This document shows, piece after piece, positions 1,011 through 60,066 of a stretch of DNA of 64,000 bases; the stretch's first letter is position 1, and every line of letters starts with the position of its first letter. This DNA comes from Bryopsis sp. KO-2023. Lineage: Eukaryota > Chlorophyta > Ulvophyceae > Bryopsidales > Bryopsidaceae. A model generated the notes under the pieces. That model was not told the DNA's origin, did no database searches, and saw only the letters and a list, made by a program, of their open reading frames with translations. A program made the translations under genes and the position numbers. Where the stretch lies: assembly GCA_030272585.1 (NCBI GenBank), contig BSYQ01000010.1, positions 992,001-1,056,000 of the forward strand, written 5' to 3'.

Positions 1011-4000
1011 CTATTCGACCCTGCGATTCCATAAGACTAGGCCCGTTTTACAAAGGAAAAAAAGAAAAAATGCATACCATCCCAGCCACATGATAGTGGC
1101 AAATAGAAAAACAAAAACACCTACAGGCGTCATGGAAAAAAACAACTCCCCTGATCTGCGAAGAGACATCATTACTCTGTGGCTGAAATCTTGAAACACA
1201 CGAAGCCAATAACAACTTTTGCCGCTGTATGTGATGTACAGATATCCATCGGGGTCTTTGTGCTCTTGATACACATCCATCATGACAGCGGCTGGAAAAA
1301 TCACACACGAAAGACTCTTTAAAAACATTGAGATGGTAAAAACAGAAGAAAACTTAGGTAAGCGATGCTCTATGATGCCTTTCCATACCACGCAAATGTC
1401 ACACAAGAAAAATGGGGAAGAAAAGTATTTCTCTTTTTGAGTTCGACGAAAATATCTGCAGTACTGATTTTCCTTCACATTGCTTTGCATGTAACCCTAC
1501 ATGCATGCATCCCCACAGATGCGTATCTATTGACATAGTTCTTTCTAAAATTGGGACCCACCAGTTGCAGGAAGAAAACAAAAATTGACACAAAGGAAAA
1601 TCGCCTTTTCACGGCTCAACTTGATTCGCTTTCGAATGACAAACACAAATTGTCCAACCAGCAGGCCCGAGGGGACAAGGTATCTAAAAATAGCAAACAG
1701 ATACATATATGTCAGATATTGAACGAAAACAGAAATTTCAGATCATTCAATGGTTCGTCAACGCTCTTCTCAATTCAGCTACTGGGAACATTTTAAGGTT
1801 GATCAACCCCAACCTGTCTACCTCATTCTCTATACAATCAAAATTCCAATAAAAAACGAGAAAATAGAATGTGAAAATATTAAAATGACAGCAGTTCGAA
1901 GGAAATAACAGCAAAAAAAAGGGTATCCATGCACTCACTTTTGCTTGTCGATGTTGGGAAGAAAGCTTCCCTCCGCTTTTTCCACGATCACCTGTTGTTG
2001 ACGGCCACAGAACAGCAATTCAGCACAACCTTTAGATTAACAAGATCCAAATGGGGAACAACAGACACATCAGATTTGGCCTGCTCTGCAGTGATTCGTA
2101 TAAAGACACAAAAACTGTTTTTGGAGAATAGACCCACACTATAGGAAAAAGCGCTCTGTGCGGCGTTATCCAACATCCCCGCGCAGACCCCTGTTCACCA
2201 CGCACAAACTGAAAAAAGACACGTACCTGTTTTGGCCCGTTTTGTGCGGCACTTTTTCATCCCCGCACAGCCGCTGACGACTTTGCCACATTCGAACTCC
2301 GCACAGGAAAACGAAAACCCCGCACAGTGTGCGGTGTTATATTTGTCTGTGCGGGGTTCTCCTGTGCGGGGTCTTCAGGATCCAAAACCCCGCACAGTGT
2401 GCGGTGTTATATTTGTCTGTGCGGGGTTCTCCTCTGCGGGGGGTTTCAGGAACTAAAGAGCCGCACACTGTGCGGGGTTTTTGTTTTCCTGTGCGGAGTT
2501 CGAATGTGGCAAAGTCGTCAGCGGCTGTGCGGGGATGAAAAAGTGCCGCACAAAACGGGCCAAAACAGGTACGTGTCTTTTTTCAGTTTGTGCGTGGTGA
2601 ACAGGGGTCTGCGCGGGGATGTTGGATAACGCCGCACAGAATGGGCCAAAACGGGTACAGGCCCGTGCGGGGGTGAATGAAGGCCGCACAGAATGGGCCA
2701 AAACGGGTGCAGGCTCGTGCGGGGGTGAATGAAGGCCGCACAGAATGGGCCAAAACGGGTACAGGCCCGTGCGGGGGTGAATGAAGGCCGCACAGAATGG
2801 GCCAAAACGGGTACAGGCCCGTGCGGGGGTGAATGAAGGCCGCACAGAATGGGCCAAAACGGGTGCAGGCTCGTGCGGGGGTGAATGAAGGCCGCACAGA
2901 ATGGGCCAAAACGGGTACAGGCTCGTGCGGGGGTGGATGAAGGCCGCACAGAATGGGCCAAAACGGGTACAGGCTCGTGCGGGGGTGAATGAAGGCCGCA
3001 CAGAATGGGCCAAAACGGGTACAGGCTCGTGCGGGGGTGAATGAAGGCCGCACAGAATGGGCCAAAACGGGTACAGGCTCGTGCGGGGGTGGATGAAGGC
3101 CGCACAGAATGGGCCAAAACGGGTACAGGCAGAGATAGGACTTGGGCCAAATTTTTGGTCCGACTCCGGTCCGGTCCGGTTACGGTCGGGTTACGGTCAC
3201 CGTACTACGGCCGTAACTCCGTACCGTAACCGGAGTAATATGTTGTTTTTACGGTACGGAACAGGTACGGTATAACTACGGTAGGCCCTAAATCACCGTG
3301 AAGTAGCGTGGTTCAGTGCTAAAGCGTTAGGCTGCAGTCAGTAGGGTCGCGGGTTCGAATCCCCCTGGGTTCCTTTGGAATCGCGGGACCCTGCGGGGGT
3401 CACTTTCTACGGTTTACGGTTGTTACGGCCGTTACGGTCGTTACGGTCCGGTACGGAGCGGTACGGAGTGGTACGGTGCTACGGTTACGGCCGTAAAAGT
3501 ACGATTTTCTGACGAAAATTGTACTCCGGTTACGGTCCGGTTACGGTGGTTACGGTCCGGTTACGGTGACCGTAACCGTAAAGTCCTATCTCTGGGTACA
3601 GGCCCGTGCGGGGGTGAATGAAGGCCGCACAGAATGGGCCAAAACGGGTACAGGCTCGTGCGGGGGTGGATGAAGGCCGCACAGAATGGGCCAAAACGGG
3701 TACAGGCTCGTGCGGGGGTGAATGAAGGCCGCACAGAATGGGCCAAAACGGGTACAGGCTCGTGCGGGGGTGGATGAAGGCCGCACAGAATGGGCCAAAA
3801 CGGGTACAGGCTCGTGCGGGGGTGAATGAAGGCCGCACATAACGCCTGTGAGGGGGTGATGCTACCGTGTACAGGGATGGTTTTTGTGTGAAATCATTTG
3901 TTTTACATCAGCATTCATAGCTACAATTTATGTCCACTAGGTTGTGTCAAGTTTGTTGAATAAAAACCCAATGAGCCCCTCTAATTTCCATTGTCCTTGG

Positions 4001-34782: not shown

Positions 34783-36143
34783 ATTTACCGACTCCAAACA
34801 AGAGGTTCTTTGCCAGAGAAGTTCCCGGATCCTCACAAAAACACTTTCAAAAAGAATCCAACCCCATCACATCCTTCTTTCCCCAACGACGTGAGTTTCA
34901 CGTCCCTGGTGCTTTCGTTGTCAATGTCGTCCCTATGGGCTCGATGTCCACTTTAACGTGGTCAGCACAACTAAGCTGTATAGTTTTCAAGTTTTTCCAA
35001 TAGGCTCACAGTTTGGTCGTGGGGTATTCCTTAAATCAAATATAATGTTGTGGAATTATTCTTGTTCCTGGCTTGCGCCACTTGGGGCAGCTTTGGCTGT
35101 TGGTTTTTGATAACTTACATGTAAGTAAGTATGTATGTAAGTACTTGTACAAGTATTGTGACGCCTCAACAACACTGGCACCCTAAAATGTACCCCCCCC
35201 CCCTTTGTTCTGGGTTTTCTTCTTATACTTTTTTTCATTTTCATTTTGAAAACCAAGAGGTTACCCCCAAAACAATCGGGGGGCATCATCCTATTCCCAG
35301 AAAAGGGGTTTGCCACAGAAGCCTTTGGAGGGCTTCCTTCTGATTAATCAGAAGGAAAATATTGTAAACAATCAGTGCCGTCCTTCCCTCTTTCGTTAGG
35401 TTCCATTTTTGGGGGTTGTGAGGCGGGCATCGCAACAGCTTTCCATTCCTGTCCATCGTTCAAAAGAGTTTGCTTTTTGGGAGGGTTCCTCTTTTTCTAT
35501 TCACCCTTTTAAAAAGGGTATCTTTTTCTTTCTTTTTTTTTTCAAACAAGGGGGTCTCCTTGACGGCACCTCCCCAGGAACTTTTTTTCAAGATGAGCTT
35601 GTGAATTGTTTTTTGTTCGATTAAGAACAGCTACCCACCCCGTCCGACACCAACAGTGAAAGGGTCTGATATAAAGAAACGAAATCTGAGTGACGCAGCG
35701 TCTACTTTTCAGTCTTAACCATCTCGCATGAAGTGGGGGCCTGATAAATGAAACGAAGCAGAACCATCCGAAACAGCCCCATTTCGGACTTTGGAGTAAA
35801 TGTTGTGAGTTTTACAACCCGTTTCTGGTAATACTTCGAAAGTAAACGATATGAATTCATATTGTGGTTTTATGGTGAAGAGCAACGTGTTCCTTGAATT
35901 TTTTTGTCAAATTGAAGCTTATTAGACGTTTATTTGTTTCACAATAAATCTCCTTTTGTAGCACTCCCCATTCCCTCCTGAAACAAAATTGTTATGTAAC
36001 ACAAAACAATAGCGACAATCAGTTCCTCTCATTTCATTATACTTAAGTATATACAACTCCCAAAGGTTGAGGATCAAAGATGACGCCCCACACTACAGTT
36101 CCCCCACATCTTTGGATTGCTGTACCATACTCACGGTATTATT
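34783..36143. other. Intergenic region between ATG8 copies 1 and 2
   Basis: No gene is supported. It contains the presumed promoter of copy 1 and the 3' flank of copy 2. A segment at about 35220-35340 resembles one at about 43120-43200 upstream of copy 3 (shared GCCACAGAAG), consistent with duplication of whole gene units. Confidence 0.6.
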
Positions 36144-37709
<1,566 letters not shown>

Positions 37710-40574: not shown

Positions 40575-42457
40575 TCACCTGATCATCCTGGCGTTCCATA
40601 AGGTATGGCCCATTTTACAAAGGAAAAAAAGAAAAAATGCATACCAACCCAGCCACATGGTAGTGGCAAACAGAAAAACGAAAAGACCAACAGGCATGGT
40701 AAAAAGCAAATTCCCTGATCTGCAAAGGGACAAGCATGCTCTATGACAGAGAAACTCAAATAAATTAAACAATGCAGCACCAACGCCACCGTATGTGACG
40801 TACAGAAATCCATCGGGGTCTTTTCGCTCTCGATACAAATCCATCATAAAAGCGGCTGGGAAAAAATAACACACAACTCTAAAAAAGACATTGAAAGTTT
40901 TCGAAAGCACAAGAAAATGTCAGTAGAAAGGTTATGCGCATTCAAAGATTGAATGGAAAGTATTTTACACAAGGCCAAACGGCGGATTGCAGCCCGTTCA
41001 CAGAAATGTGCCGTAGGCTGACTCAGAAAGAAACCACCGTATCATCACAATGTCCATACACAGCTCTCTACCCCAACGATAAACTAAGAAGACACTGATT
41101 CGAAAACCTTCAGAAAAAATGCTGAGCATTCAAGCATACTATTTATATCTTTCTTTCTCAAACTGACACTCACTAGTTTCTGGAAAACCACTATTGGGAA
41201 AAATGAACACTGCATCACTCGACTTGAGTTGCTGTCTCATATCATAAAAGAACTGTCGAACCGGCAGCTTCGACAGGATTAGTTGTCTGGAAATTTCAAA
41301 CAGATGCATGTAAATGAAATGAATGAAAAACAGTGAATTGAATGAACACAAAAAAACAAAAAACATCATAAAAATCTCACAGATCATTCAATGATTCGTC
41401 AACACTCTTCCTCATCTAGCTACCTATCTATCCATACATATATGTTCCCAGCACTTTAATCCCAGCTTGCCGACCTTTGTCTAGACAACACCAGTGGAAA
41501 TCATATAATGAACAAGAACATACAATGTGACATATAGTGTATGCATCATAATGGTGTAACATTAACAGCAGCAGTTCAAAGGAAACGGCAAGGCATGGGG
41601 GCCATCCATGTACTCACTTTTCCTCATCAATGTCGGGAAGAGAGCTTATTCTCAGTTTTTCCACGATCACCTGTTGTTGACGACCACAAAACAGGAATTC
41701 AACAGGAATTTAGATTAAAAAGATCTGAATGGCGAAGGCGGGATGCATAATTGATAAATAACACAAATACTAATAAATATATGTATATATCTGCATGTGG
41801 ATTGTATGCCTTCCGATCAGAATTGGGGTGCTTTTTTTATTTTTTTTATAGTGATGCACAACCATGTGTGCAACAGCCACTTGGAGAAATGCTTCAAATG
41901 GGGCTGAATCAATGGTGGAAATGAAAATAGACTGTGAACGCTCCTCGAATAGTAACAACACACTCACCGGGATCATGTCTGGGTACGTCGCTCGAATCCT
42001 GTCAGACTCCGCTTTTCTCTCTTCTGCAACACGGAACCAAACCAAAAAAAATTTAAACTCCACGACAAGACAGTCGGAAAACGTCCCCTCAACAAAACAG
42101 TTCCGAAACCTTACCTAACAAACTTTATCCTTGCCTCTTCTACTTTCGACGTACCCCCCTTTTTGTTCCGTTTCTAACAAATTTTTTTGGTTTCTATAGA
42201 TGCCCCCCACCAACTAAACCCGATGAAGCCAACTCTGCCTTTTTTTTTTTCCTTTCCTTCCCTCGCTTTGTTGCACGACCATCGGCGCAGAATTTTTTGG
42301 GAAGTTGGTGCGATTCAGCTTGTGTGCTGCTGTTTGTTATTCAACAGGCAGCTAGACTCATGAGCTTGATCAGCTGCAGCTGAATCGACGAACTTCCTTG
42401 TTGTGTGAATGAGGAGCAAAACTGACCGAAAGGGAATCGCTCGCGGAAGGTTTTCAT
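40575..42457 (-). CDS. ATG8: ATG8 paralogue 3, divergent core, tail-anchored form
   Basis: Third ATG8 copy. Exons are 42427-42457, 41968-42023, 41618-41670, 41174-41286 and 40575-40855, totalling 534 nt (177 aa). Exon 1 encodes MKTFRERFPF, close to the classic ATG8 start, and exon 2 gives ERKAESDRIRATYPDMIP. Exon 4 is six bases shorter than in copies 2 and 4 and strongly diverged. The usual KYLVP, VGQF and RKRIKL motifs become QLILSKLP, VRQF and MRQQLK, so residues of the peptide-binding face have changed. Exon 5 keeps [11 protein letters not shown] but follows it with GGVGAAL instead of SGENTFG, then the shared hydrophobic tail ([20 protein letters not shown]). The frame and splice sites are intact, so it is not an obvious pseudogene. 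The altered core suggests relaxed or changed selection. Confidence 0.82.
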
Positions 42458-44496: not shown

Positions 44497-47400
44497 TTAT
44501 CCTAGGTTACGATTCCATAAGGCTTGGCCCATTTTAAAAAAGCAGAAAAGCAAAAATGCATACCATCCCAGCCACATGACATTGGCAAACAGAAAAACGA
44601 AAAGACCGAAAGGCATCAAACAAAGGGAATCCACTGATAGGACGAGGAACCTAATTACTCTGTCGCTAAAAGGCTCAAAAAAGGGTAGAGTGCCCTCACC
44701 ACGGTATGTGATGTACAGAAATCCATCGGGGTCTTTATGCTCTTGATACACATTCATCATGATAGCGGCTGGGAAAAAATAACACACAAAAAACTCTTAA
44801 AAAAACATTAAGATGTTAAAAAATTCAAAAAAATGTCAGTGAAAATTCATTACTAGTTTCTCTATGGTACTTTTTCATGCCACGCAAATCTCGAACAACA
44901 AAGAGGGAAAGCAAAGCATCTTAGGTTTTTCCAGTAAAACATCTGCAGGATGGATGTCCTCTACATTTGCCCATAATCCCCGCATGCATGCATCTTAATT
45001 TTTTTTTTCCCTCCTTTCTTAAATTGGACTTTCCCTTGGCACTCACCATCTGGAAGAAGATCGTTCTTGACAAAAATGAAAATCGCCTTTTCACTGCTCA
45101 ACTTGATTCGCTTTCGAATGGTATACATAAATTGTCCAACCAGCAGGTCCGAGGAGACGAGGTATCTAAAAGTAGAAAACAAACATATTATTCAATGAAA
45201 ACAGATGATTGCATGCAGAGAATCTCATAGATCATTCAATGATTCGTCAACGCTCTTCCTCATCCATCTGTGCATAGCACCTTACCCCCACCACACCTAA
45301 CTTTTTCAATGAGAAAAAGAATAGTAGAATAATAATAGATTATTTATGAGATAATAGAATGTATCAATAGATCAATGGCAGCAGTTCAAAAGAAAAGCAC
45401 ATAAGGAGGGCACCCCTGTACTCACTTTTGCTTGTCAATGTCGGGAATATCGCTTCTCTGAGATTTTTCCACGATCACCTATTGTGGACAGCCACAAAAC
45501 AGCGATTTAAGACAAACTTCACAGGCAGAAAAACTGAAATCCTTTTAGGGGTCCATTTTTCCAAAAATAGTTTCTCTCTTTCCATGAATCACCGAAGAAC
45601 ACCCCAAAAACTGATGAGTAAGGCAATACAATCCACATGTAAAGATCCATATCAAGTTAGCTGTTAATGTCAATGGTGTTTTCTGAAATGCTTTAAAAAA
45701 AAAATGGGATGAATGAATGGTAGAAATGAAAAATGGGGAAAACGCTCCTCGAGTGGATGCGACGCACTCACCGGGATCCGATCTGGGGACTCGGATCGAA
45801 CCTCGTTAGACTCCGCTTTTCTCTGTTCTACAGCACGAAACCGAACACAGCCGCAAGTTACCCCCGTCCCCTCAACAAAACAATTTCGAATCCTTCCACA
45901 ACGAAGTTGATCGCGGGGAAGTAACCAATCAATCAAAAATACATGCGCTGAAGCCCAGGCATAGAAACAAAAAAAGAGTTAACCTTGCCATGTCTGAACG
46001 AGGAAAAGAAAGAATGCTACTTCCTTGTCAACTAAACCCGATAAAACCGACTGTATTTTCCTTCCCTGCCACCCACAATTCATCCAAAACGTTTCACAAG
46101 CTCAAAATTATCAAGAAAGGTGGAAATGTTCCAACCTAAACACACAAAAAATATTCAGAAAAGAAAAGAAAAGGTGGAATTGTTCCGATTTGAACACAAA
46201 CGCCGGCCACACTTCCCCATTTTGTTTTCTCTTTCTCTTTTTTTTTGGGGGGGGGGCGGGGGGGCGGGAGGGGGGAGAGGGAACATTCACACCTTCAAGG
46301 TGTGAATGTTCTCGGTATTATTCTGGGTCGAGAATTATACCAGTGCTACGGTATTATAATACCGTGGGTGTTACAGGGTATTAATAGGTATTAACAATAA
46401 CATCATCTTAATACCGCGAGCTGGGGTGAGAATGACGTCTCGTCGCGACAACGCCTTCACTGAAATTGTCAAGTTGCTGCCGACAGTGGTGCTGTCCCAA
46501 CTTCGCCGCCGTCCTCACGTCGTACTCAATGCGGAATGGAAATCGTCCAGTTCGATTCTGGAGCCGCATCTGGGAAAAAAACTTCAGCACCAGCATTGCG
46601 CCTGAAGTGTGACGAGAAGCGGTCGATTCCTTGTCGGACGAGGTTGTCGCTTTTTTTCGCCTCGTTTCAGAGTTTCGAGGCGTTTGGGAGGACCGGCGCG
46701 ACCTTTTTTTTCCATCGTTGGCAAAAGTGTGCTGATTAGCGACGGAGCATGATGGCAGCACCGATGGCAGGCGCGGTAGATCAGGCGCGAAAGAGAGCGC
46801 GTTGCTATTGTGGCATCAGCATTCTTTTGCTCTTTGATCATTTTCTGCAGGAGGCTTCTAAGGATTTTACCATGGTGCAAGATAGGCTGAAGCAACCCTC
46901 TGCCCATACCAAAAATTTGAACTGAGCTGGGGTAGCCTGATTGTGGTGGTGGAAATCAGAACAGTTTCTTTTGTACAGGTAGCAATTGTTGATTTGCAAT
47001 TTTTTTGGCCAGGTTCAATTTTGGGAGGTCTTTCTTGTTATTTATTCCTCCCTTCCACGTGTTTGTACTTGAAATTAGCTCAAACTCTGTCTGCTGTGCT
47101 AGGGAAATAATATGGAGTCGTCGATGGAAAACGAAGGTTATTTTGCTGAGAAGTAGGTAAGCGGTTCTGTCATCCACCAGTCAAGAGACAAGGAGTGTTT
47201 TTAGTGGGAAAAGCCGTTGCAAAAAGGGAGTCAATATTTTAGTTTCAAAGCCCCAATCTGTTGAAGCTTTGAGAAATGTAACGATAGATTGATTCATGGT
47301 TTCACAGGGGTGGCGGTGGGATGAACCCGTGAGGATAGGATCGAGGTGCATTTCAACGAGGTGGGTGGAACAACGTCGGCTTCGAGAGGGTTTTTTGTTT

Positions 47401-50400
47401 AATATATTTAGTTTCACTCAGTTTTGTTTTTATGTTTTTCTTTCCGGTTTGCTTTCAGTTTGAAGAAGTTTCGGAAACCCTGGATCCTGCAGTGGGAAGG
47501 GGCACTGCAAGCCAACCCAATACCCCATGAATGATGGGGTGCTGGAGATGTGCATGGCAGAAAGCCGACTGGACCTATGGTTGAAAGCATGCAACAGCCT
47601 TCCCCAGGTTTCCAAAATGGCCTCCTTGAACACTGTTGGTGTCTATTTCCAGAACGACTGTCCCCCCCAGTAGTGCCCAATATTATCAAGTGCTTATTCA
47701 TTTACTGAGATGTTTACTTGTTTTTCTGGGCAGGATCCAAGTGAATGGGAGGAGGAAGAGAAGAATCCTTACACCTGCGAAAGGCTTCTGTTGATGTACG
47801 ATCGCTGGAGGAAATTGCACAACTGCGACCCACTCTTGTAGAGAGCAAGGCTGAGGCCAAAAAAGATTGCCACTCCGGTCGCTCATTCATGTGTGGGGAA
47901 TTTGAGGACAGAGAACCTGGGGGGGTGAATTGCTGAACTGTAGCGGCTTTGAACGATTGTGAGTTCAGATTATGGTGATGGACAAGAGCTCTTCTCAGGT
48001 TTTGATTAGATTGTGGTGGGAGAAAAGGTCTTGTGAGTTCAGATTATGGTGATGGACAAGAGCTCCTCTCAGGTTTTGATTAGATTGTGGTGGGAGAAAA
48101 GGTCTTGTATTGAGAGAGCAGGATGGTCAATGCCCAGTTCGATTCTGGGCCTGTCAATGCAATTTGGGAAATGTAATGAAGCAATTGTATTTTTTTAATT
48201 TTGACATTATGTCTGTGCATTCTGATATTACCAACACCTAATGATATCGATTAATATTATTGCATTTCATTATCAATCCTATGGTGTTAATAACATCGTA
48301 TGCACGGTGTTAGGAGACCGTGGTATTACTCGGTGTTAGACGGTATTAACAACACCGCTAATACCCAGTCTCCCGCCTGAGTTTCAAAGACGTCAATCCA
48401 GGTATTATCGGTGTTATTAACATCGGTTAATACCGACAGTATTTAATACCGCGTGCGAGGTGTTATTAATACACGGTGTTAAGTTGGGAGACTAGACATT
48501 AACGTGTATTAATAATACCACGGTGTTACAGGGTATTAACGCAGTTTTAATACCGAGTACATTTTTGCGACGTTGACATCATCAAGAGTGGTTCCTGCCT
48601 TTTCATAGGCGCAACCAGGATTTCGGGGGAGGGGAGGCCGAAATATTTTTTGGGGGGGGCACTTTTAATTTTTGTGCCGTTCAGTAGAAAATATGCCGAA
48701 CAGTATTTTTTTTTCTTTTCTTGCTAGCTTTCTTGGGGGGGCCAGAAATTTTTTTAGGGGGGCCAGGCCCCCCCAGGCCCCCCCAGGCCCCCCCAGGCCC
48801 CCCCCTGGTTGCGCCTATGTGCCTTTTCCGTAAATCGGTTCCACAAGTCTCTGTCAGGCGCGACATCGCCCAACTCGCCCGTCTTCTCACCCGATTTTTC
48901 GTTTTCTCGCACAAATGTTGAAACTACCTGCAGAAAAACCCCCACAAAAAAAATAAAACTTGAGAATCCTATATGTTGATGCAGGAAAAAATGAGGGAAC
49001 AAAACCTTTAAAAAAACTAAATAGAACGAAAGGAAGGTTCGATACACTCATTGTGACTAACATGCCCCATGATCTGATCAAGAGTCGAATTTATGTTTGA
49101 GTAAAGATATGAATCTCGGCTCAAATCTCTTGGCGTGAATTCGCAACTTGGGCTGTTTTACCCAAGATAAACCCAACCCGCGTGGACGAGTTCAAGGTTT
49201 GAAGGTTTCCCCAACTAACTCTCACAAACCAAAAGCGACAAATAGAACAGAGTCATTGCAGATACCAAACTCCAAGAAGCACTCACCGAACCCACAACTT
49301 CGACGCCTTTGGACAAGGCCGTCTGATACAAACGTTGGAACAATGATAGACTAGTCGAGTGGACTTACGTCTAGAGCACGGAAACACTTTCTCAACAAGG
49401 AACTTTACAATGTGTCCAAGTTACAATAAGGCTGTGGTCCGGGCCGAATAAGTATTCGGCCGGGCCGACAGCCTGTCCAACCCTTTTGATACCAGCTGCT
49501 GACGTCCAGGGACGTCAGACGTCAAAGGCGTCATGCATCTGACGTCTGTGAAGCGTCAGATGCATCCCCGGTGAATGACAGCATCCTCCCAAGGAGGTAC
49601 TACTGACCTACAGCGAGGAAACCACCGTAAGAGCACAGAGTCAAGACAGTGGTTCGATCATCCAGATTAGGACTTGCGAGACTGAGGTCTTGGGTTCGAG
49701 TCTGAGCGGAAACGTGCTTTGGTCTGGGCCTGTGTGTGAGAGTGTGAGTGAGTCAGGAGTAGAACTGGCGGCTGTGAGTCAGGGTAGTGGGAGTGTTACG
49801 GGTGGTTAGTCACCCTCGGGAAAGTCGAACTGGGAGTTAAAATGATGGGACGCTTGATGTAACCTTGCTTTTCAGTGATCTGTTGGTGTGACCCCGAGTC
49901 TGTGACCCGTGCGATTTTGTGTGACCGTTCCGCCGCCGCCTCACTCTTTTCCGAGATAGGAGACGTCGCTCGCGGACGTCAGTCCTCCCGAGCGATAACA
50001 TTTTTGGTTTCGGAGCCCGAAGGAACCGACTGGACTGGAGCTCTCCGCTGGTTTGACCAGCAGGTTTGTTCGAGGCGCTTAACGCCAGTCGTAAGGTCGT
50101 GGGAAAACGGAAAAAGGCAAACGCAGTGAACGGGAAAAAAGGAAAACGTGTGGTAGCAACGTTGGAAAAGAAGCACACCCATAAAAAGAGAGAAAAGAGG
50201 GTGCCAACGTTCAGTCGTGTGACAGGACGTTTGGGAAAAAGGTTACCCTGTAACCTGCGTCGCTGTCAGCGAACTGTAGTACTCAGGTTCGAAGGGTTAG
50301 AGTCGGACGTGAAGGGGTATAGTAGTATTACGTATAGTAACTCTCACGGCAAGGGCACGTGGGTTATCCGTTCACAGTTCGGCAAGGACAGGTCGTGGCG

Positions 50401-53400
50401 CGAAAGTCAACGGTCTACAGTTGACAGTAACCGTTGCCTGGAAAGTCAACTGAAAGTCAAGCGACCAGAATGGCTCTGGTTCCGGTCGTTACAGAAAGCG
50501 ACATGGTCGCGATAAGCGACGAAGTCATGGAAGGGTCAGAAGTGCAACCAATGGTGCACCAGCAAATTCAGAATATACAGATTAATGGTTCTGATCACAC
50601 TGAAATGCAAAGACAGATTGAGGTCTGGGGTGGAACAGTAACCAACCACCTCCAGCAATCATTGACCTCCATGCAGAGTCAGGTTCAACAAGTCCAGGTT
50701 GAACTCTATACACACAGAGAGCAAGCAGAGCTACATCAGTCAACTCTAAAGGAAGAGTTGCAGTCAGCCTTAGTGCACAGTTTGGAAGAACAGAGTCGAA
50801 AACTACAGCAGACTCAGGAGCTACATGCAAAGGACTTTTATCAAAGCCTCACTGCAAATACAAATACTCAACTGAAGGACCTTGGTGAACAGTTGAGAAG
50901 TACAGGAAAAGATCATGCTGTGGGCATGGCTCAGTGGAAAAATAAGAACCAAACAGAGCTGGAACTATTCCAGAAGAAGCAGTTAGCTCTACAGGAGCAA
51001 CTGATGTTGGTTCAAAAGAAACAACAGGAAGATATTAATGCCCAATTATATGAAGTGTCTCAGCACATGCAAAGAATGCAAAAACAGCTGATGGAAGAGA
51101 GGGAGAGTATGACAAACACAATGACTAGCATACTGCAAGGAGAATTGGACTCCTATCCTGCAGTCATTCAGAAAATGGTAGCTACAGCAGTGGATGAAAC
51201 CACCACAGCTATTGAGGACAAGTATAACAATGCTGAAGGACAGAAAGCAGATCTAGAAGAGACTAGATGGGCTTTAACTGATCCAGAATATCAGAAAGCA
51301 GTTGATGGCTGGATGAAGGATGGAATCCTGAGAACACCTATTCCTCCACAAGTGATGCAAGTGCATATGATGCAAGCAACACAAACAGTACAGAATACAG
51401 AGGAAGGAGAAACTGAGGGACAAACTCAGGATATCCCAACATCTGGTCAGCCACCAGTACAGCAAGTTATACCTGCCACAAGTACTGGAGCAGTACCTCC
51501 AGGACCCTCTTCTTTAGGTCTAATAGACCTCACTTCAGGACAACAACTGTCCATGGGTTTACCACCCCCTATACTGCAACCACCAGCAGTAACTATAGCA
51601 CCTCCAGCTACCTTTACTTTAGGTACTACCCCAGCACCATCAGGAATGGGAATTAGACCACCAAATCCCTTTGAACAGTTAACAAGTCAAAGAGCACCCA
51701 GTGGTGGTGCACCTGGAGGAAATCCAGGGGATCCAAATGGATCAAATGGACCAAATGGCCCAGACAGACCAGGCATGCCTAGAGCATCTGGTTCTGGACA
51801 TCCAGGGCCAGGGAATGGTGGTGATGGTGGTGGAGGTGATGGAGGAGGTCCCCCAGGAGGAGGACCACCTGATAGAGATCCTAGTGGTACATCAGGAGGT
51901 TCAGGACAAGGTCCTGATAGACCTTACAGCAAACAGATTAAGCTCACTCCCCCAGAGAAATTCACAGGAGATGAAAGGATGTCTGCAACAGAATGGATAC
52001 TAGGAATGAAGAGATGGTTGCAGAATCAACACATCTTAGAGAGGGACTGGTTATCCTGTTTTCAGTCACATCTCCAGGGAGATGCACTTAGCTGGTTAAA
52101 CCTGATGGATATACAGATCATGAATCAGGAAAAAGCAGAGTATGCTAGCTGGCAAGAGTTCACTCAAGAACTAAGGAATGTTTTTGAGCCAGTCTCCCTA
52201 ATAGAGACTGCCAGAAAACAATTAAGAACTCTAAGGCAGACTGGAACTGCCTTAGGCTACATCAGACTCTTCAGAAAGCTGATGTTTAGACTCCCCAATC
52301 TACCTCAAGAAGAAAGATATGCAGCCTTTGTGGATGGGCTCTCAGATAGAAATATGCAAGCACAGGTTATGACCCTGTGTGATGGAGATCTAGATAAGGC
52401 CATCCTCACAGTCCAAAGACTCTCTGCAACTATAGGCAGTAGAGGTGGCACTACTAGCAGTTTTAGAGGCAGAGGTAGAGGGAGGGGAAGATTTGGACAG
52501 AGAAATACACAGATGTCAGCAATGATGTCTGCTGCAACATCACAACTGCCTCCTGCAGCAAATTCAGTTAAGGCTGTGCAGCAGAGAGGTCAGATGGGAT
52601 CTAGGCCCTCAAGGGGAGGATCCTTCAAGTGTTTTCTATGTGGAAGCACAGAGCATGGGGTAAGACAGTGTCCCAAACTGTCCCAAGCTCAGAAAGCCCT
52701 GAAGAAGGGAAACTAAAAGAGGAGGCTAGTGTTGGGTCAGCTAAGCCTCCAGATGATATTGAAATGAAAGAACCCACTACAAAAACACCAGCCTCACTAA
52801 ATGATGGTGTTCAAGAGACACCTGTGGTTGCAGCCCCTATTGCAACAGAACAGGAAGCATACACACTGGATGGGGTCACTCCAGGAGTGTTAATTCAAAA
52901 GAAAAAGCAGTCTCAAAAGAGAGTGGATAAACAAACAGAGGCCACTGTGAGTTTACCCACTAGAGTGGAAAGAAATGTTGAGGGAAAGGAACCAGTTCAG
53001 ACTGCAGTAGCTCAGGCTACAGCAGCATATAGAGGATATGAACTGGCAGGATTTATTGGTGCAAAGAAAGCTACAGCATACATTGATACAGGATCCACTG
53101 CTAACTATATTAGCATGGATGCAGTCAAGGAACTGGGACTGCAATACAAACCACAAGAAACTCCTGTTAAGTTTCTAGATGGTACAGAAAGGAAATCAGT
53201 AGGGAGATGTTATGGCATCCCATTTGTCTGTGGAAAGATCCAGCTCTCATTTGATGCTGATGTCTTTCCAGACAGTAATCACCCAATCCTGCTGGGATTG
53301 CCCTGGCTTATACACTACAATCCCAAAGTGGACTTTAAGTCAGGAATAATCACAGTAAACAAGGGCAGAAAGAGTGTAAAATTACCACTCTCAGTGATGC

Positions 53401-56400
53401 CTGAATATCAGCTCAAACCCACTGGAGCTACAGAACTTTCCTTTTGTTCTAGTGGCAGAATCAAAAGACAGATAGAAAAAGGGGAAATTAAACACATCAT
53501 CATGGTGGTGATCAGGCCAGAGGATGAATCAAAGACTGGAGTAGAAACAATCCCAGAACAAAGAGAAGGGGATGATCTACAGAAAATCCTGCAGGAGGAT
53601 ATGGATCCCAGGATTAAGGAAGTACTGACTCAGTACAGAAAAGTGTTTGCAAAGGATTTGCCTAAAGGTGTACCTCCTGTCAGACTGGGTCATGAATTCA
53701 GGATTGATTTGGAGGAGGGTACAGAGCCCATGTATAGACCCCTATACAAACTGTCTCCTCTTGAGTTAGATGAGGTTAAAAGACAGTTAGATTACCTGTT
53801 GGAGATGGATTTCATAGAACCATCACAGTCACCATTTGGGGCACCCATCCTGTTTGTCCCTAAGAAAGATGGAGGGCTCAGGATGTGCCTGGATTACAGA
53901 TGGCTCAATAAGAAAACCATCAAAAATAGGTATCCTCTGCCCTTACCAGAGGAGATGATTGACAGGGTACATGGGGCTAAATATTTCACAAAGATTGACT
54001 TGAGATCAGGCTACTGGCAGATGCCTCTAAGGGAAGAGGACAGGCCTAAGACTGCCTTCAGAAGTAGATTTGGACATTACCAGTTCAAGGTCCTTTCTTT
54101 TGGACTTACTAATGCTCCAGCACAATATATGAACATGGTTAATGACATCTTCAAGGATATGCTGGATATCTTTGTGCTGATCTTCATTGATGATCTCTTA
54201 ATCTATTCTAAGAGCATCTCTGAGCATGTAGAGCATTTAGCAGCAGTCTTAGCCAGGCTACAGAAGTATAGTCTGTTTGCCAAGGCCACCAAAAGTGAAA
54301 TCTGTGTAAGGGAAACAGATTTCTGTGGATTTTGGTTGAGTGAAAAAGGGATCTCAGCAATGGATGTGAAAGTTAAGGCAATCAGGGATTGGAAGCCCTT
54401 AAAGACAGTTACAGATGTCAGGAGTTTTCTGGGGATGGTTTCCTTCTATAGAAGATTCATCCCAGACTTTGCAAAGATAGCAGGCCCTCTGCATGACTTA
54501 ACTAAGAAGGATGTCATGTGGGAGTGGGGATCTGCACAGGAACAGGCTTTTCAAACACTCAAAACTGCATTGATGGGGAAACCAGTGCTGATCCATCCTA
54601 ATCCAGTGAAAGATTACACTGTGATTAGTGATGCATCTGGGGAAGCAACTGGAGGAGTCCTCTGTCAGGATCATGGCTCTGGATTACAGCCCATAGCCTT
54701 TTGCAGTAGAAGATTATCCAAATCAGAACAGAATTACTCAGTGTATGAAAGGGAACTCCTGGGAATAGCCTACTGCTTGATGCAGTGGAGGCACTATTTA
54801 GAGGGCTGCCCAGGAGAAGTCACAGTCTTTACAGACCACCAGCCACTAACAAACTTTATGGATCAAAAAATGATGTCAAGGCCTCAGGCCAGGTGGCTGA
54901 GAGCAGGACATTTCCTCAGCATCAAACCAAAGATTCAGTACATCCAGGGGAAATTGAATCTAGTGGCTGATGCACTATCAAGAAGTCTACCAGCAGAGAA
55001 TCAAGTGAATGTAGTGAGCTCCTTACAACCTAGTATGGAGGAGATTACACTCTGGGAACAAGCAACACTAGCAGATGTTGAGATCAAGGACATCTACACT
55101 CAAATACTGGATGGGGAGAGAATTCCAGGCTATGGAATTAATGAATCAGGATTGTTGATTTATCAAACTCAAGATGGACTCATGAAGTTATGGGTACCTC
55201 AGGAACTGAGGATGAAAGTCCTTACAGAAGGACATGATAATCAAATCTCTGGACATCTAGGGATAGAGAGAACTCTGGAGCTGATGTCCAGGAAATACTA
55301 CTGGAATGATATGAAAAAGGATGTCCAGGAATATGTCAGGACATGTGAGGTTTGCCAGCAAATGAAGCCTGAGTTGAGAGCTCAGAAAGGCTTGCTGCAA
55401 CCTATTCCAGTAGCTGATAAGAAATGGGATCAGATCACTACTGATTTAGTGACTGATTTACCCCCTGTTGATGGATTTGATTCCATTGCAGTCTTTGTTG
55501 ATAGATTGACCAAAATGGTGAAGTTCATACCCTGTAGTAAAACAATAGATGCACCAGGGTATGCAAGGATATTCTTTGATCACATCTTCAGGAATCATGG
55601 GATTCCTAGTGTGATAATCAGTGATAGAGACACTAGATTCACAAGTAAATTTTGGCAGGAATTAATGAAGTGTGTGGGCACTAAAGTTAGAATGTCTACA
55701 GCCTTCCATCCTCAAAGTGATGGACAAAGTGAGGTCAGCATCAGGACCTTAGAAAACTTTCTAAGACCCTATGTGGAAGATCATCCAGAGACCTGGATGC
55801 AGGGATTAGGGATGGCTGAGTTTGCAGCTAATAATGCTGTGCATACTGCAACTGGATACAGCCCCTTCTACTTGATGTATGGAGTGCATCCACAACTGCC
55901 AGGGGATTTACTTGCTGGAAAAGCTCAAGCTGAAGCAGAGTCAGTACAAGAGATGATATCTCATATGCAGGAAGTCATCAATGATGCCAAGGACAGATAT
56001 AAAACAGCCCAAGAGAAGATGAGGCAGCAAGCAAATAAAAGGAGAAGGGATGTACAGTTTCAAGTGGGAGAAAAGGTGTTGCTCTCCACAAAGACATTGA
56101 ATTTATCAGTCTTGAAACATATTCCAGTGAAAATCAGAAGAAGATATATAGGGCCTTTTGTTATTGCTGCTGCAGTGGGATCTGTGGCATATAGATTGGT
56201 GTTACCAGATGGATGGAAATTACATCCTGTATTTCATGTATCAAAGTTGAGAAAACTTCAAGAGAGTTCTAAGTTTCCTAGGGAGGTAATGGCACCTCCA
56301 GCAGAATTAGATTCTGAGGGAGAAGAAGAATTTGAAGTTGAGGCTGTAGTAAGACATAAGTTTTCAGGAAGGAAAAGAAGATTTTTAGTAGTCTGGAAGG

Positions 56401-59400
56401 GGTATCCACTTAGTGAAGCAACCTGGGAACCCCAAGACAATTTATTGAATGCATCAGAGATCCTGGCTGATTATAAGAGGAGAGCTGGGATCAGGTAGAA
56501 GTTAGATGCACTTTTGATTCTGTGGCTGAAGGATCAGGAATCCCAGAGACTAGGGGATGGGTTGCATAAGGGCAGTGAAGTGTTTTCTGAACTTCTGTGG
56601 GTTAAGGATTTTATGGGGATCTAATTATCCTTTCAGAAGTGCAGGGAGCTTGGGATTTGCATCACCCTAGTTCAGAGTTACTTTTACAGAATCAGAAGGA
56701 TGCATTTGATAGATACTTGGTGAGGGCACCAACTGCCCCCAGGGGGGAGGCAATTGATACCAGCTGCTGACGTCCAGGGACGTCAGACGTCAAAGGCGTC
56801 ATGCATCTGACGTCTGTGAAGCGTCAGATGCATCCCCGGTGAATGACAGCATCCTCCCAAGGAGGTACTACTGACCTACAGCGAGGAAACCACCGTAAGA
56901 GCACAGAGTCAAGACAGTGGTTCGATCATCCAGATTAGGACTTGCGAGACTGAGGTCTTGGGTTCGAGTCTGAGCGGAAACGTGCTTTGGTCTGGGCCTG
57001 TGTGTGAGAGTGTGAGTGAGTCAGGAGTAGAACTGGCGGCTGTGAGTCAGGGTAGTGGGAGTGTTACGGGTGGTTAGTCACCCTCGGGAAAGTCGAACTG
57101 GGAGTTAAAATGATGGGACGCTTGATGTAACCTTGCTTTTCAGTGATCTGTTGGTGTGACCCCGAGTCTGTGACCCGTGCGATTTTGTGTGACCGTTCCG
57201 CCGCCGCCTCACTCTTTTCCGAGATAGGAGACGTCGCTCGCGGACGTCAGTCCTCCCGAGCGATAACACCTTTCATCCAACTCAGCGTCCTAATGGTCCC
57301 TTGGCCGTGTCCTAATGGACCCTAAGCTGAATGTGAGGCTCCAGGCCGAACTGAGGGTTGCCACCTCAGAGGCGGCCTGGCCCTCTCCCTTAATGTGTGG
57401 CTATGATGATGGTGAGCTGGTTCGGTCCGACTACTGTCAGGCCGAACCACGTGTTGGGTGAGTAGGCCGAACCACGTGTAATACGACGGACGTTCGTATC
57501 ACCGTCACTCCCAGCACAGCGACACCGTACGGTTCGCGAATCAGAGTACCGTAATAGTTCTTTTTCTTCTTGGCCGAGTCTTTTCGACTTGTTTGGACGA
57601 CGTCTCGTCGTCGGTACTCGCGTGCAGCCGATGTGTTCTGATCAACGCGCCGCGTCCAAGTGCCGCAGTTCGGCCTACACGTCCTTGAGATCTTTTTCAG
57701 CCCGACGGGCTGGACCAGGCCGGGAAACGAGGACATCCGGGTCAAAAGATCCGAGCGCGCCTTTGTGTTCGACACGAGAGTCATAACGAGGCTCAGCGCC
57801 CTCTGCGGCGCTGATGGACTTTGTTCGCGTGTCTTGTACAGATCGGGAGAGCGCCTTTTCCTCCTCCGGCCCAACGACCGCAGAAGCCAGAATCGAACCG
57901 ACCAATCACCCACGGTCTTGGCAAAAAGAAGATTGACGGATCCGATTGCGGGTTTGATTGAATAATTTGGGGACGATCATTTTCAAACTCTCTGAACATT
58001 TGTTTCTCGTCAGAAGAGTGGCAATTCCTCTCCACAATGTAGAATTTGATGTCGTAAAACCCATTAGGATGAGACTAAGTGCTTTGTGGGGGTGACTGGC
58101 TCTGGGATCAAAGAGTCAAAAATCACACAGAATGGGATGTGAACAGTAATGGGTTTTATCAATGTGTTGAATACACTCGTTCGCAACAGCGATACCGAGT
58201 GGTGAAACAGCCGCCAAAAGAATGCTTTACAAAAAGTAAGCCAAATAATCGACCATACACCCAACCTCCTTCTTCCCTAAATCGCACCCCCTCTCTCCGA
58301 GTCTTCCCGACTAAGCCCCATGACCGACTCAGTTCTGATCCGATTGACTCCTCCTGACTTTGCCTTTGCCTTCATCGTCTTCAACCCAAGCTAAACCAAC
58401 ATCACTGTCCCAGTGTTTCCTATCCACTTTCTCTCACAGTTTTTCCCATCTACCCTTTTCCTAGCTTTTTCTGGCGTGGGCTGTTTCCAGTTAACACTGG
58501 ACCCTTCGCCTGCTCTTGACCCTTAAAATGCAAGTCACACATAGACTCTCCACCATCGCCAGTCATGGGCTGCACAGGACAGGGTTCTGTACGGGTTCTG
58601 TGCACCCTGTGCAGGTCTGTCATGTGCAGCGGAATTGCACAGGCCAGAACAGCACAGACTGTCTGTGCACGGAACAGGGTCGGACCTGTGCGCACAGATG
58701 CACAGACTGCACAAAACTGCACAGAACAGCACAGAATCTGCACAGACTGTGCACAGAATCTGCGCAGAATCTGCACAGACAGTGCACAGAACTGCACAGA
58801 ATCTGCACAGAAACTGCACAGACCGTGCCTGTGCTGTGCTGTGCAGTCTGTGCGACTGTGCAACACAGGTCCGACCCTGTCCTGTGCACAGACAGTCTGT
58901 CCCGTCCTGTCCTGTGCACAGGGGTCTCAGCCCATGTCTGACCATCGCCAAGATCGACCAGCAGCAACTCTAACCTTCTAACCAATTTTGAAGGAGAGGC
59001 TCCACCAAAATCATCGTCCGATCCCCCCACTCCACAATCCACCACCCCCCATTCCACCTCCGGACGGCCTAGGGTAGCCCAGGGGGTAGGTGGTCTAAAG
59101 CGAGGATTCTGCAAACCACCATTTTCCTTGTCTCCAGTGTTTGGGGTGCACAAGCTCAACCCCTGCTGCGATCCATCCACCTGGGATGCCGGAGTGACTA
59201 TTCTTTCCCTGATGACCGTTGGTTGCGGTGAAACCCCACAAGACCCCAAAGACGATGTGGTGGATGGATGCTGGGGGATGCCCTCTTTTTCGGAGTTTGA
59301 ATGATTCGACGTCGTCGACATTTCCCTCCAGCCCCCTTGTCCCGTTTGCAAGCTTGGCGTCGATTCTCGGCCTTGCACGATGCTTTCGGTGATTTCCAAA

Positions 59401-60066
59401 CGGTCGATGTTGCTGCCAGCTGTACTCAAGCTGTGACGAGATGTGAACCCCAGTTCAGACATGGCAGTTCTAGGTTTCAGGAGGTCGCTGCCAGTGTCGA
59501 GCTCCCCATCGGCCCTCCGCCTCCCCCCAAATTCCTCAAACAGAGCATGAATCGTGTTCAGCACCGGACGGGGTTGGACGCCGTCGTTTCCAGAAGGATT
59601 GGGAGCCCCATTACCACCTCCAACAGTGGATTTTTTTATCCTCTTGATTGGAGAGACTCGATGGGGAAGGGCCGCCATCCAATTCCATGGCTCCTCCAGT
59701 GTTTCCTGAATTGGTGCATCCCACCAAAGTTCCTCCCGATTGTTGAAACTGTGGGTCCAGTCTTTCGAGCACTCCTTCTTGGGGGGTAAAGGTGAGGTGG
59801 AGAGGTGTTGCTTGGGCTGTCGGCTCGATGCTGTCCCTTTGGCCCCCCTCCCCACAACTGACCATTCTTCCAATCGAAGCCACATCCTGGCAAAGCAAAA
59901 CACGATTGTCGGCGCAGAATTTTGGTAGATCAGCTTGAGAGCAGCTGTTTGTTATTCAACAGCCAGCTACACTTACGAGCTTGATCAAGCTGAATCGCGA
60001 ACTTCCTTTTTGTGTGAATGAGGAGCAAAACTGACCGAAAGAGTACTGCTGACGGAAGTTTTTCAT
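44497..60066 (-). CDS. ATG8: ATG8 paralogue 4, tail-anchored form, 14-kb intron 1
   Basis: Fourth ATG8 copy. Exons are 60036-60066, 45772-45827, 45426-45478, 45047-45165 and 44497-44768, totalling 531 nt (176 aa). Exon 1 ([10 protein letters not shown]) was placed at 60 kb because its sequence, its donor G|GTCAGT and its flanking intron all match exon 1 of copies 1-3. The part of intron 1 next to exon 2 stops resembling the other copies near 46070 and the similarity resumes near 59890. Other blocks are [49 protein letters not shown] and [19 protein letters not shown]. The tail again has a transmembrane segment ([20 protein letters not shown]), and the protein ends NRNLG. Exons 2-5 are secure; the exon 1 assignment depends on splicing across the inserted 14 kb. 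Confidence 0.8.
46231..46318. repeat. G-run and adjacent perfect hairpin
   Basis: T and G runs (about 46232-46282, several G tracts of 4-10) could form a G-quadruplex. They are followed by GAACATTCACACCTT and its inverse AAGGTGTGAATGTTC around one base, a 15-bp hairpin. Confidence 0.75.
47527..47839 (+). pseudogene. Coding fragments of unknown gene within the GGTATTA element
   Basis: 47527-47672 is an open frame starting [19 protein letters not shown] second stretch from an acceptor at 47734/47735 reads [20 protein letters not shown] to a stop near 47839. Both have protein-like composition, but no continuous gene model could be assembled and no family is recognised. They could be the remains of a transposase. 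Confidence 0.3.
47959..48108. repeat. Two-copy 74-bp tandem duplication
   Basis: GTGAGTTCAGATTATGGTGA starts at 47959 and again at 48033. The copies differ at one or two bases (CTCTTCTC versus CTCCTCTC). Confidence 0.9.
48604..48819. mobile_element. hAT-type MITE with G-quadruplex-like core
   Basis: 216 bp with 16-bp inverted ends CATAGGCGCAACCAGG, flanked by the 8-bp duplication TGCCTTTT (48596-48603 and 48820-48827). The right half has five runs of seven or more C separated by AGG (G runs on the minus strand), and the left half has G runs. It is unrelated to the CAGAGATAGG MITE. Confidence 0.88.
48828..49486. other. Unassigned intronic sequence
   Basis: No convincing gene. Near 49441-49470 a palindromic GGCCGAATA...TATTCGGCC occurs; GGCCGAA words recur after element C (57330-57480), so C inserted into a repeat containing this word. 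Confidence 0.4.
49487..50000 (+). repeat. 5' LTR of element C
   Basis: Starts TGATACCAGC and ends GCGATAACA. The first 80 bp carry a cluster of TGACGTC/GACGTCA words and a 12-bp inverted repeat ATGCATCTGACG...CGTCAGATGCAT (49533-49565). Confidence 0.96.
50005..50016 (+). other. Primer-binding site of element C
   Basis: TGGTTTCGGAGC four bases inside the 5' LTR, the same 12-mer as in A and B. The region 50017-50469 is an untranslated leader. Confidence 0.8.
50470..52716 (+). CDS. gag: Gag of element C
   Basis: 748 aa from ATG at 50470. The N-terminal half is Gln/Glu-rich and helical ([20 protein letters not shown]), likely coiled coil. A Pro/Gly-rich linker follows ([19 protein letters not shown]). 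The capsid-like region starts near residue 490 ([19 protein letters not shown], then [19 protein letters not shown]). An Arg-Gly stretch ([12 protein letters not shown]) precedes the zinc knuckle [14 protein letters not shown]. It forms the particle and packages RNA. The long N-terminus makes it nearly twice as long as Gag of A and B. The stop TAA follows the slippery heptamer. Confidence 0.93.
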   Translation: MALVPVVTESDMVAISDEVMEGSEVQPMVHQQIQNIQINGSDHTEMQRQIEVWGGTVTNHLQQSLTSMQSQVQQVQVELYTHREQAELHQSTLKEELQSALVHSLEEQSRKLQQTQELHAKDFYQSLTANTNTQLKDLGEQLRSTGKDHAVGMAQWKNKNQTELELFQKKQLALQEQLMLVQKKQQEDINAQLYEVSQHMQRMQKQLMEERESMTNTMTSILQGELDSYPAVIQKMVATAVDETTTAIEDKYNNAEGQKADLEETRWALTDPEYQKAVDGWMKDGILRTPIPPQVMQVHMMQATQTVQNTEEGETEGQTQDIPTSGQPPVQQVIPATSTGAVPPGPSSLGLIDLTSGQQLSMGLPPPILQPPAVTIAPPATFTLGTTPAPSGMGIRPPNPFEQLTSQRAPSGGAPGGNPGDPNGSNGPNGPDRPGMPRASGSGHPGPGNGGDGGGGDGGGPPGGGPPDRDPSGTSGGSGQGPDRPYSKQIKLTPPEKFTGDERMSATEWILGMKRWLQNQHILERDWLSCFQSHLQGDALSWLNLMDIQIMNQEKAEYASWQEFTQELRNVFEPVSLIETARKQLRTLRQTGTALGYIRLFRKLMFRLPNLPQEERYAAFVDGLSDRNMQAQVMTLCDGDLDKAILTVQRLSATIGSRGGTTSSFRGRGRGRGRFGQRNTQMSAMMSAATSQLPPAANSVKAVQQRGQMGSRPSRGGSFKCFLCGSTEHGVRQCPKLSQAQKALKKGN
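52629..56498 (+). CDS. pol: Pol of element C
   Basis: Open from 52629 in the -1 frame relative to gag; expressed pol probably joins at 52713. Numbered from 52629: aspartic protease near residue 150 ([13 protein letters not shown]); reverse transcriptase with [10 protein letters not shown] near 520; RNase H near 670 ([14 protein letters not shown]); integrase zinc site near 875-905 (HLGIERTLE, then CEVCQQMK); DDE core ([30 protein letters not shown]); C-terminal chromodomain ([20 protein letters not shown]) ending near 1289. This order is that of Ty3/gypsy chromoviruses. All catalytic motifs are present and the frame is open throughout. Confidence 0.95.
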   Translation: MFSMWKHRAWGKTVSQTVPSSESPEEGKLKEEASVGSAKPPDDIEMKEPTTKTPASLNDGVQETPVVAAPIATEQEAYTLDGVTPGVLIQKKKQSQKRVDKQTEATVSLPTRVERNVEGKEPVQTAVAQATAAYRGYELAGFIGAKKATAYIDTGSTANYISMDAVKELGLQYKPQETPVKFLDGTERKSVGRCYGIPFVCGKIQLSFDADVFPDSNHPILLGLPWLIHYNPKVDFKSGIITVNKGRKSVKLPLSVMPEYQLKPTGATELSFCSSGRIKRQIEKGEIKHIIMVVIRPEDESKTGVETIPEQREGDDLQKILQEDMDPRIKEVLTQYRKVFAKDLPKGVPPVRLGHEFRIDLEEGTEPMYRPLYKLSPLELDEVKRQLDYLLEMDFIEPSQSPFGAPILFVPKKDGGLRMCLDYRWLNKKTIKNRYPLPLPEEMIDRVHGAKYFTKIDLRSGYWQMPLREEDRPKTAFRSRFGHYQFKVLSFGLTNAPAQYMNMVNDIFKDMLDIFVLIFIDDLLIYSKSISEHVEHLAAVLARLQKYSLFAKATKSEICVRETDFCGFWLSEKGISAMDVKVKAIRDWKPLKTVTDVRSFLGMVSFYRRFIPDFAKIAGPLHDLTKKDVMWEWGSAQEQAFQTLKTALMGKPVLIHPNPVKDYTVISDASGEATGGVLCQDHGSGLQPIAFCSRRLSKSEQNYSVYERELLGIAYCLMQWRHYLEGCPGEVTVFTDHQPLTNFMDQKMMSRPQARWLRAGHFLSIKPKIQYIQGKLNLVADALSRSLPAENQVNVVSSLQPSMEEITLWEQATLADVEIKDIYTQILDGERIPGYGINESGLLIYQTQDGLMKLWVPQELRMKVLTEGHDNQISGHLGIERTLELMSRKYYWNDMKKDVQEYVRTCEVCQQMKPELRAQKGLLQPIPVADKKWDQITTDLVTDLPPVDGFDSIAVFVDRLTKMVKFIPCSKTIDAPGYARIFFDHIFRNHGIPSVIISDRDTRFTSKFWQELMKCVGTKVRMSTAFHPQSDGQSEVSIRTLENFLRPYVEDHPETWMQGLGMAEFAANNAVHTATGYSPFYLMYGVHPQLPGDLLAGKAQAEAESVQEMISHMQEVINDAKDRYKTAQEKMRQQANKRRRDVQFQVGEKVLLSTKTLNLSVLKHIPVKIRRRYIGPFVIAAAVGSVAYRLVLPDGWKLHPVFHVSKLRKLQESSKFPREVMAPPAELDSEGEEEFEVEAVVRHKFSGRKRRFLVVWKGYPLSEATWEPQDNLLNASEILADYKRRAGIR
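52707..52750 (+). promoter_or_regulatory. -1 ribosomal frameshift signal, gag/pol of element C
   Basis: GGGAAAC at 52707-52713 is a canonical slippery heptamer, read G GGA AAC in gag. Then come the gag stop, a 7-nt spacer and a hairpin GGAGGCT (52721-52727) with AGCCTCC (52744-52750) around a 16-nt loop. Loop bases 52733-52737 could pair with ACCCA at 52772-52776 to make a pseudoknot. The -1 frame runs directly into pol. Confidence 0.88.
56499..56754 (+). other. 3' untranslated region of element C
   Basis: About 250 bp with no open frame of note. It ends in the polypurine tract. No accessory ORF is present, unlike A and B. Confidence 0.8.
56755..57268 (+). repeat. 3' LTR of element C
   Basis: Second 514-bp LTR, preceded by the purine tract AGGGGGGAGGCAA (56741-56753). 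Confidence 0.96.
57274..58500. other. Unassigned sequence right of element C
   Basis: Overlapping open frames on both strands at 57437-57965 have no recognisable motif and no supported exon structure. GGCCGAACCACGTG is repeated (about 57440 and 57468). Nothing definite is seen at 58000-58500. Confidence 0.35.
58560..58925. repeat. CTGCACAG/CTGTGCAG short repeat cluster
   Basis: Dozens of copies of CTGCACAGA, CTGTGCACAG and related words in both orientations. Because the unit lacks stops, several frames on both strands stay open. The words resemble the CACTA motif CTGTGCGG only superficially. Confidence 0.85.
58970..59880 (-). CDS. Hypothetical Ser/Pro-rich protein fragment
   Basis: An open frame of about 300 codons on the minus strand, from an acceptor-like TTTGCCAG at about 59890 down to the CTGCACAG repeats. 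Composition is Ser, Thr, Gly and Pro-rich ([34 protein letters not shown]), with [17 protein letters not shown] near the start. No family is recognised and no terminal codon before the repeats is clear. It may be an exon of a gene in the inserted block or chance coding. Confidence 0.3.

Follow-up and report, generated by a model that had tools for sequence, protein, structure and literature searches.

Candidate tail-anchored ATG8-like proteins encoded by a family of genes in the green alga Bryopsis sp. KO-2023

Proteins of the ATG8/LC3/GABARAP family are cut by ATG4 after a C-terminal glycine and then attached to phosphatidylethanolamine; ATG8 works by being placed reversibly on membranes through this glycine. 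Ubiquitin-like proteins that are membrane anchored are also known, among them HERPUD1 and TMUB1. According to a review (PMC11449223), every algal ATG8 surveyed has kept this glycine, and some algal ATG8s possess long C-terminal extensions that are cut off by ATG4. The genes described here, from the siphonous, giant-celled ulvophyte green alga Bryopsis sp. KO-2023 (Bryopsidales), encode ATG8 cores that lack the glycine and continue into a hydrophobic helix. They are read here as a young, recombining family of putatively nonconjugable, tail-anchored ATG8-like proteins that undergo fast protein change, a reading to which we assign a probability of about 0.48, that is, slightly below even.

Organization of the locus and gene models

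The window, that is, the whole 64,000-nucleotide stretch of DNA that was analyzed, corresponds to positions 992001-1056000 of contig C10 (5,138,194 bases) in the 91-Mb genome. It contains four minus-strand genes of five exons each, designated A to D (Table 1). The intron phases (1, 0, 2, 1) are common to all four genes, and GT-AG ends are present in 16/16 introns of the models. Each gene encodes a full ATG8 core, followed by a linker and a hydrophobic stretch, and the Pfam ATG8 domain (PF02991) scores above the cutoff of 27 bits in every case (A, 134.8; B, 144.3; C, 89.3; and D, in the NCBI model, 135.2). The initial annotation of four five-exon ATG8-core genes in conserved phase is borne out by these features. 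Its layout of four tailed genes also stands, with the correction that retrotransposon-filled introns separate exons 1 and 2 of A from exons 3 to 5 by 32 kb, and exon 1 of D from its remaining exons by 14 kb. These far-off first exons are backed by the motif GGAGTCG, which lies just 5' of the start codon (ATG) in every one of the six family members. A family of four is what the window holds, but a fifth, frame-broken copy (E) and a canonical ATG8 (F) were found nearby, outside it. No consistent poly(A)-like motif was detected after the stop codons. A 443-codon open frame without a Pfam match (58620-59951, minus strand) adjoins exon 1 of D.

Table 1. Exons of genes A to D and retrotransposons in their introns (window positions)
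Feature	Position	Strand	Basis
Gene A exon 1 (13 residues; ends in phase 1)	34743..34782	-	tblastn, splice model, upstream GGAGTCG
Gene A exon 2	34256..34311	-	tblastn, splice model
Gene A exon 3 (separated from exon 2 by 32,264 bp)	1939..1991	-	tblastn, splice model
Gene A exon 4	1562..1683	-	tblastn, splice model
Gene A exon 5 (core end, linker, helix 1050-1121, stop)	1011..1291	-	tblastn, splice model; helix placed from model
Gene B exon 1	37670..37709	-	splice model; same start in NCBI BSKO_10957, splice differs
Gene B exon 2	37277..37332	-	tblastn, splice model
Gene B exon 3	37028..37080	-	tblastn, splice model
Gene B exon 4	36640..36758	-	tblastn, splice model
Gene B exon 5 (helix 36183-36254)	36144..36415	-	tblastn, splice model; NCBI model exits before helix
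Gene C exon 1	42427..42457	-	splice model; spliced C = NCBI BSKO_10958
Gene C exon 2	41968..42023	-	splice model, BSKO_10958
Gene C exon 3	41618..41670	-	splice model, BSKO_10958
Gene C exon 4 (core most diverged here)	41174..41286	-	splice model, BSKO_10958
Gene C exon 5 (helix 40617-40688)	40575..40855	-	splice model, BSKO_10958
Gene D exon 1 (separated from exon 2 by 14,208 bp)	60036..60066	-	tblastn, splice model; NCBI has another first exon, start 46083
Gene D exon 2	45772..45827	-	splice model, NCBI BSKO_10959
Gene D exon 3	45426..45478	-	splice model, NCBI BSKO_10959
Gene D exon 4	45047..45165	-	splice model, NCBI BSKO_10959
Gene D exon 5 (helix 44536-44607)	44497..44768	-	splice model; retained in NCBI BSKO_10959
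Nested Ty3/gypsy chromodomain retrotransposons, intron 2 of A	1992..34255		Pfam; LTR comparison
Ty3/gypsy retrotransposon, intron 1 of D (515-bp LTRs, 100% identical)	49486..57268	+	Pfam; LTR comparison

The models were compared with the NCBI proteins of this genome. BSKO_10958 is identical to the gene C model letter for letter, and BSKO_10959 comprises exons 2 to 5 of D, including the tail, with a first exon at 46083 instead of 60066; the exact protein for C and the shared exons of D rule out a chance reading frame. No NCBI protein matching A or E was found among the best 120 of 7145 profile-search matches. BSKO_10957, which has the same start as B, differs in splicing and has other exons at both ends. 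Its exit from exon 5 precedes the helix, which counts against the tailed reading for B. The tail of the family might thus go unused, with alternative splicing (as in NCBI's B) or another 3' end yielding a tailless, soluble ATG8-like protein. This alternative is considered improbable: the donor used by BSKO_10957 to leave exon 5 reads GTCCAC, whereas the other introns have donors of the GTGAGT type; the helix is retained in BSKO_10958 and BSKO_10959; and the helix DNA is well conserved.

The giant intron of A harbors two LTR pairs, one of 463 bp (5123-5585/22979-23441) that encloses another of 350 bp (8959-9308/17898-18247), with flanks that fit the 5-bp duplications CAAGG and CCATC. Both pairs are 100% identical, as are the LTRs of the element in D, indicating that the Ty3/gypsy elements arrived recently. 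The same intron of A contains 52-bp tandem repeats at 2549-3946, repeats of ~50 to 100 bp at its other end (31950-34082), and a 300-bp repeat common to 3129, 32707, and 33783; the repeats at both ends are perhaps the ends of one older, large element.

The C-terminal tail and the lost glycine

In A to D, 66 to 69 residues follow the glycine of the TYxG motif, that is, the proteins extend about 60 residues beyond the normal ATG8 end. The tail begins with a variable linker, continues with a hydrophobic stretch of 24 residues that has the core FLFA(T/N)xMWLGWYAF, and ends with 12 to 13 further residues to the C-terminus, in agreement with the earlier description of some 60 extra residues carrying one hydrophobic segment of about 25. 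When hydrophobicity was judged from the best window per protein, that window lay in the tail in 4/4 cases, with values of 1.86 to 2.16 on the Kyte-Doolittle scale and -17.0 to -19.5 on the octanol scale, compared with 1.55 and -5.7, respectively, for the tailless F. A hydrophobic helix of membrane-spanning length near the C-terminus, the arrangement by which tail-anchored proteins are recognized, is therefore predicted for all four proteins. Because the helix DNA is T-rich (54% T), hydrophobicity alone is weak evidence. Mean pairwise DNA identity along exon 5 is 0.86 to 0.94 at the core end, 0.57 to 0.69 in the linker, and 0.80 to 0.94 in the helix, followed by 0.68 to 0.84 from the helix to ~80 bp past the stop codon and 0.37 to 0.56 farther on. 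By this profile, the contrast of the helix with the linker is clear, whereas that with the DNA after it is mild.

The position of the lipidated glycine is occupied by R in A, S in B, N in C, and P in D, whereas F has G; in B, a glycine occurs one place later than normal (STLSG). The predicted products of A to D hence lack the defining feature of a conjugatable ATG8, the glycine exposed by ATG4. A simple pattern applied to the 160 ATG8 proteins collected detects F/Y/L-G at the core end in 155, a count that comes from the pattern itself and includes at least one false match, the YGG of C. Exons of ATG4, ATG7, ATG5, and two ATG3/ATG10-type loci are present in the genome, so that lipidation is presumably kept for F. 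The tail could, in principle, be a long propeptide that is removed by ATG4 or another protease, so that the copies end as ordinary ATG8s. The existence of long, ATG4-removed extensions in algal ATG8s, as reported in the review (PMC11449223), and the late glycine of B are compatible with such processing, but F-G is missing from the site in A, B, C, and D alike, which makes it very improbable.

Other extended ATG8 proteins were sought in the collection. By the same kind of simple pattern, 31 of the 160 proteins have an extension of at least 19 residues, and four exceed the hydropathy threshold, namely C, D, a Cys-rich protein of Monoraphidium, and a metagenomic protein (P0155), the latter two of which retain FG. 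In P0155, the FG is followed by a hydrophobic C-terminal stretch that is presumably removable by ATG4. Only P0001 and P0122 had more than 70% query cover among the best 120 of 7145 profile-search matches. A search of the protein collection with the tail alone gave one match among two candidates, Bryopsis C itself, and none of the titles listed in the literature searches concerns an ATG8 that naturally bears a membrane helix.

Possible sources of the tail within the genome were also considered, with searches that skip very common words. An origin from another gene or mobile element was rejected: a peptide search matched the five tailed copies only (5/5), all matches to the D tail DNA were in the copies (5/5), and so were 5/6 matches to exon 5 of A, the sixth being F. 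A tail exon hidden downstream of F was likewise rejected, being absent from loci L009 and L011 by tblastn, which gave only weak, chance-level matches.

For C (mean pLDDT, 84.6; pTM, 0.64) as well as for NCBI's D (81.4; 0.57), the AlphaFold models show an ATG8 fold followed by a long C-terminal helix (residues 134 to 176 in C and 163 to 198 in D). The pLDDT of the helix block is 79 to 92 in C and 77 to 95 in D, and that of the linker blocks is low, 52 to 68. In Foldseek, the best 50 matches listed for C and for D were all Atg8-family structures, and D matched Atg8 chains in the PDB; the ubiquitin-like ATG8 fold is thus predicted for both modeled proteins. Of 15 residues that we take to form the LIR/AIM docking pocket, B keeps 15, A 14, D 12, and C 8. 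On these counts, A and B could bind LIR proteins unchanged and are the likeliest members of the family to do so, and C probably does not bind them in the usual way.

Recombination, constraint, and decay

Copy E and the canonical gene F lie on the plus strand in locus L009, ~75 kb away from A to D. F is a protein of 128 residues that ends in YSGESTFG-SFETFETELA, is identical to NCBI BSKO_10943, and is the sole glycine-bearing ATG8 found in this genome. No ATG8 genes were found beyond the six on C10 when the best candidates from a genome family search (9 matches) and a protein search (19 matches) were scored. The copies share their exon structure with F, and DNA similarity between them ends a few codons before the glycine of F; in exon 5 of A, for example, the match to F is confined to the first 77 bp. 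Judged from their predicted proteins and exon structure, A to D are members of the ATG8 family by descent. E, in which the end of exon 4 is out of frame with exon 5 by one base, is a mosaic: it is C-like from exon 1 to intron 2 (0.87 to 0.94), A-like from exon 3 to the core part of exon 5 (0.87 to 0.96), and D-like in the tail (0.94), with the remaining intron comparisons at 0.49 to 0.74. Conversion or unequal exchange is the likely cause, and it weakens all tree-based selection figures given below. In addition, dS between A to D and F is 0.14 to 0.36, less than the intron divergence (identity, 0.50 to 0.74). The exons look homogenized, perhaps by exon-only (cDNA-like) conversion, or else synonymous sites are perhaps constrained.

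The chief rival explanation is the decay of recent duplicates, in which unconstrained copies extended into T-rich DNA and some frames are merely still intact. It is a serious contender, although its chances appear clearly short of even. The codon data point in its direction. In a grid search, the optimal omega was 1 for the core (A, B, C, D, and F) and for the linker, tail, and whole gene (A to D), with values of 0.45 and below clearly worse; pairwise omega in the core was 0.47 to 1.04, and the best value for the helix (A to E), 0.45, was not distinct from 1 (P = 0.17). No avoidance of the sites conserved across ATG8 proteins was seen among replacements relative to F in C (P = 0.48), D (P = 0.40), or the broken E (P = 0.48), where replacements fall as at random, so that C and D no longer evolve like ordinary ATG8s. 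Conversely, A avoids these sites (P = 0.004), which speaks against decay; B perhaps does so too (P = 0.15).

Comparisons of exons with introns are similarly divided. Exons and introns have diverged to the same extent in the recent pairs C-E and A-E, as decay would predict, whereas between F and the copies the exons are better conserved than the introns. Gaps in multiples of three are enriched in exons (34/50, versus 91/297 in introns), in counts pooled over 15 pairs of copies and hence not independent. The broken frame of E, the T-rich tail, and the retrotransposon-bearing introns of A and D all accord with decay, but the identity of the LTRs suggests that the insertions are too recent to have shaped the divergence of the copies, and the better conservation of helix than of linker DNA is not what decay would leave. 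Finally, under random substitution at half the mean pairwise divergence, the frame stayed open in 8 to 12% of simulations per copy, yet A to D are all open; at ~0.1 each, the joint probability would be ~1e-4 if the copies were independent. The evidence for selection is mixed, and the divergence of C and D fits decay or a new role alike.

Proposed function and comparison with known systems

Under the favored reading of a tail-anchored family, the ATG8 gene was duplicated, and from a few codons ahead of the site cut by ATG4 onward, the copies carry another 3' end, which encodes a linker and one C-terminal hydrophobic helix. Some or all of A to D might be made as tail-anchored proteins and inserted posttranslationally, with the ubiquitin-like head in the cytosol. 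Lacking the glycine, they could not be charged by ATG7 and ATG3, which would result in permanent residence in one membrane. There, anchored A, B, and perhaps D might recruit or sequester LIR-bearing partners independently of the ATG4-lipidation cycle in which F takes part. The initial annotation had proposed a permanently anchored ATG8 that bypasses ATG4 and the lipidation machinery. The loss of the glycine in 4/4 copies, the tail-anchor-like helix with its conserved DNA, and the presence of a normal ATG8 (F) in the genome favor this proposal, and the copies could, as far as their sequences tell, reside in a membrane independently of both ATG4 and lipidation. In its simple form, that of an anchored but otherwise working ATG8, the proposal fares less well, given the near-neutral codon evolution, the loss of 7/15 LIR-pocket residues in C, and the splicing out of the tail in NCBI's B.

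A broader version, in which a lipidation-free ATG8 branch, recombining and permanently anchored, marks a membrane of the giant coenocytic cell and diversifies quickly while the canonical ATG8 keeps conjugation, is rather unlikely.

A genome with one canonical ATG8 alongside several copies that end in a hydrophobic tail would be a natural experiment that separates the ATG8 tasks dependent on reversible lipidation from those for which being on a membrane is enough. With their near-neutral evolution, the copies are also a case of a new membrane protein family being born, or dying, by tail replacement.

Compared with ATG8/GABARAP/LC3 proteins (PF02991), A to D share the whole ubiquitin-like core and, in A, B, and D, most LIR-pocket residues, but they lack the C-terminal glycine at the ATG4/ATG7/ATG3 site and possess a long tail with a C-terminal hydrophobic helix instead. 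The long-extension algal ATG8 precursors, such as that of Volvox carteri (PMC11449223), resemble them in having an extension after the core; however, those precursors keep the glycine, so that the extension is removable, whereas the Bryopsis copies have lost it and carry a conserved hydrophobic helix. Tail-anchored proteins and the membrane-bound HERPUD1 and TMUB1 offer a different parallel, the combination of a ubiquitin-fold head with a membrane helix, of which A to D would have one, near the C-terminus; in the Bryopsis proteins, the head is an ATG8.
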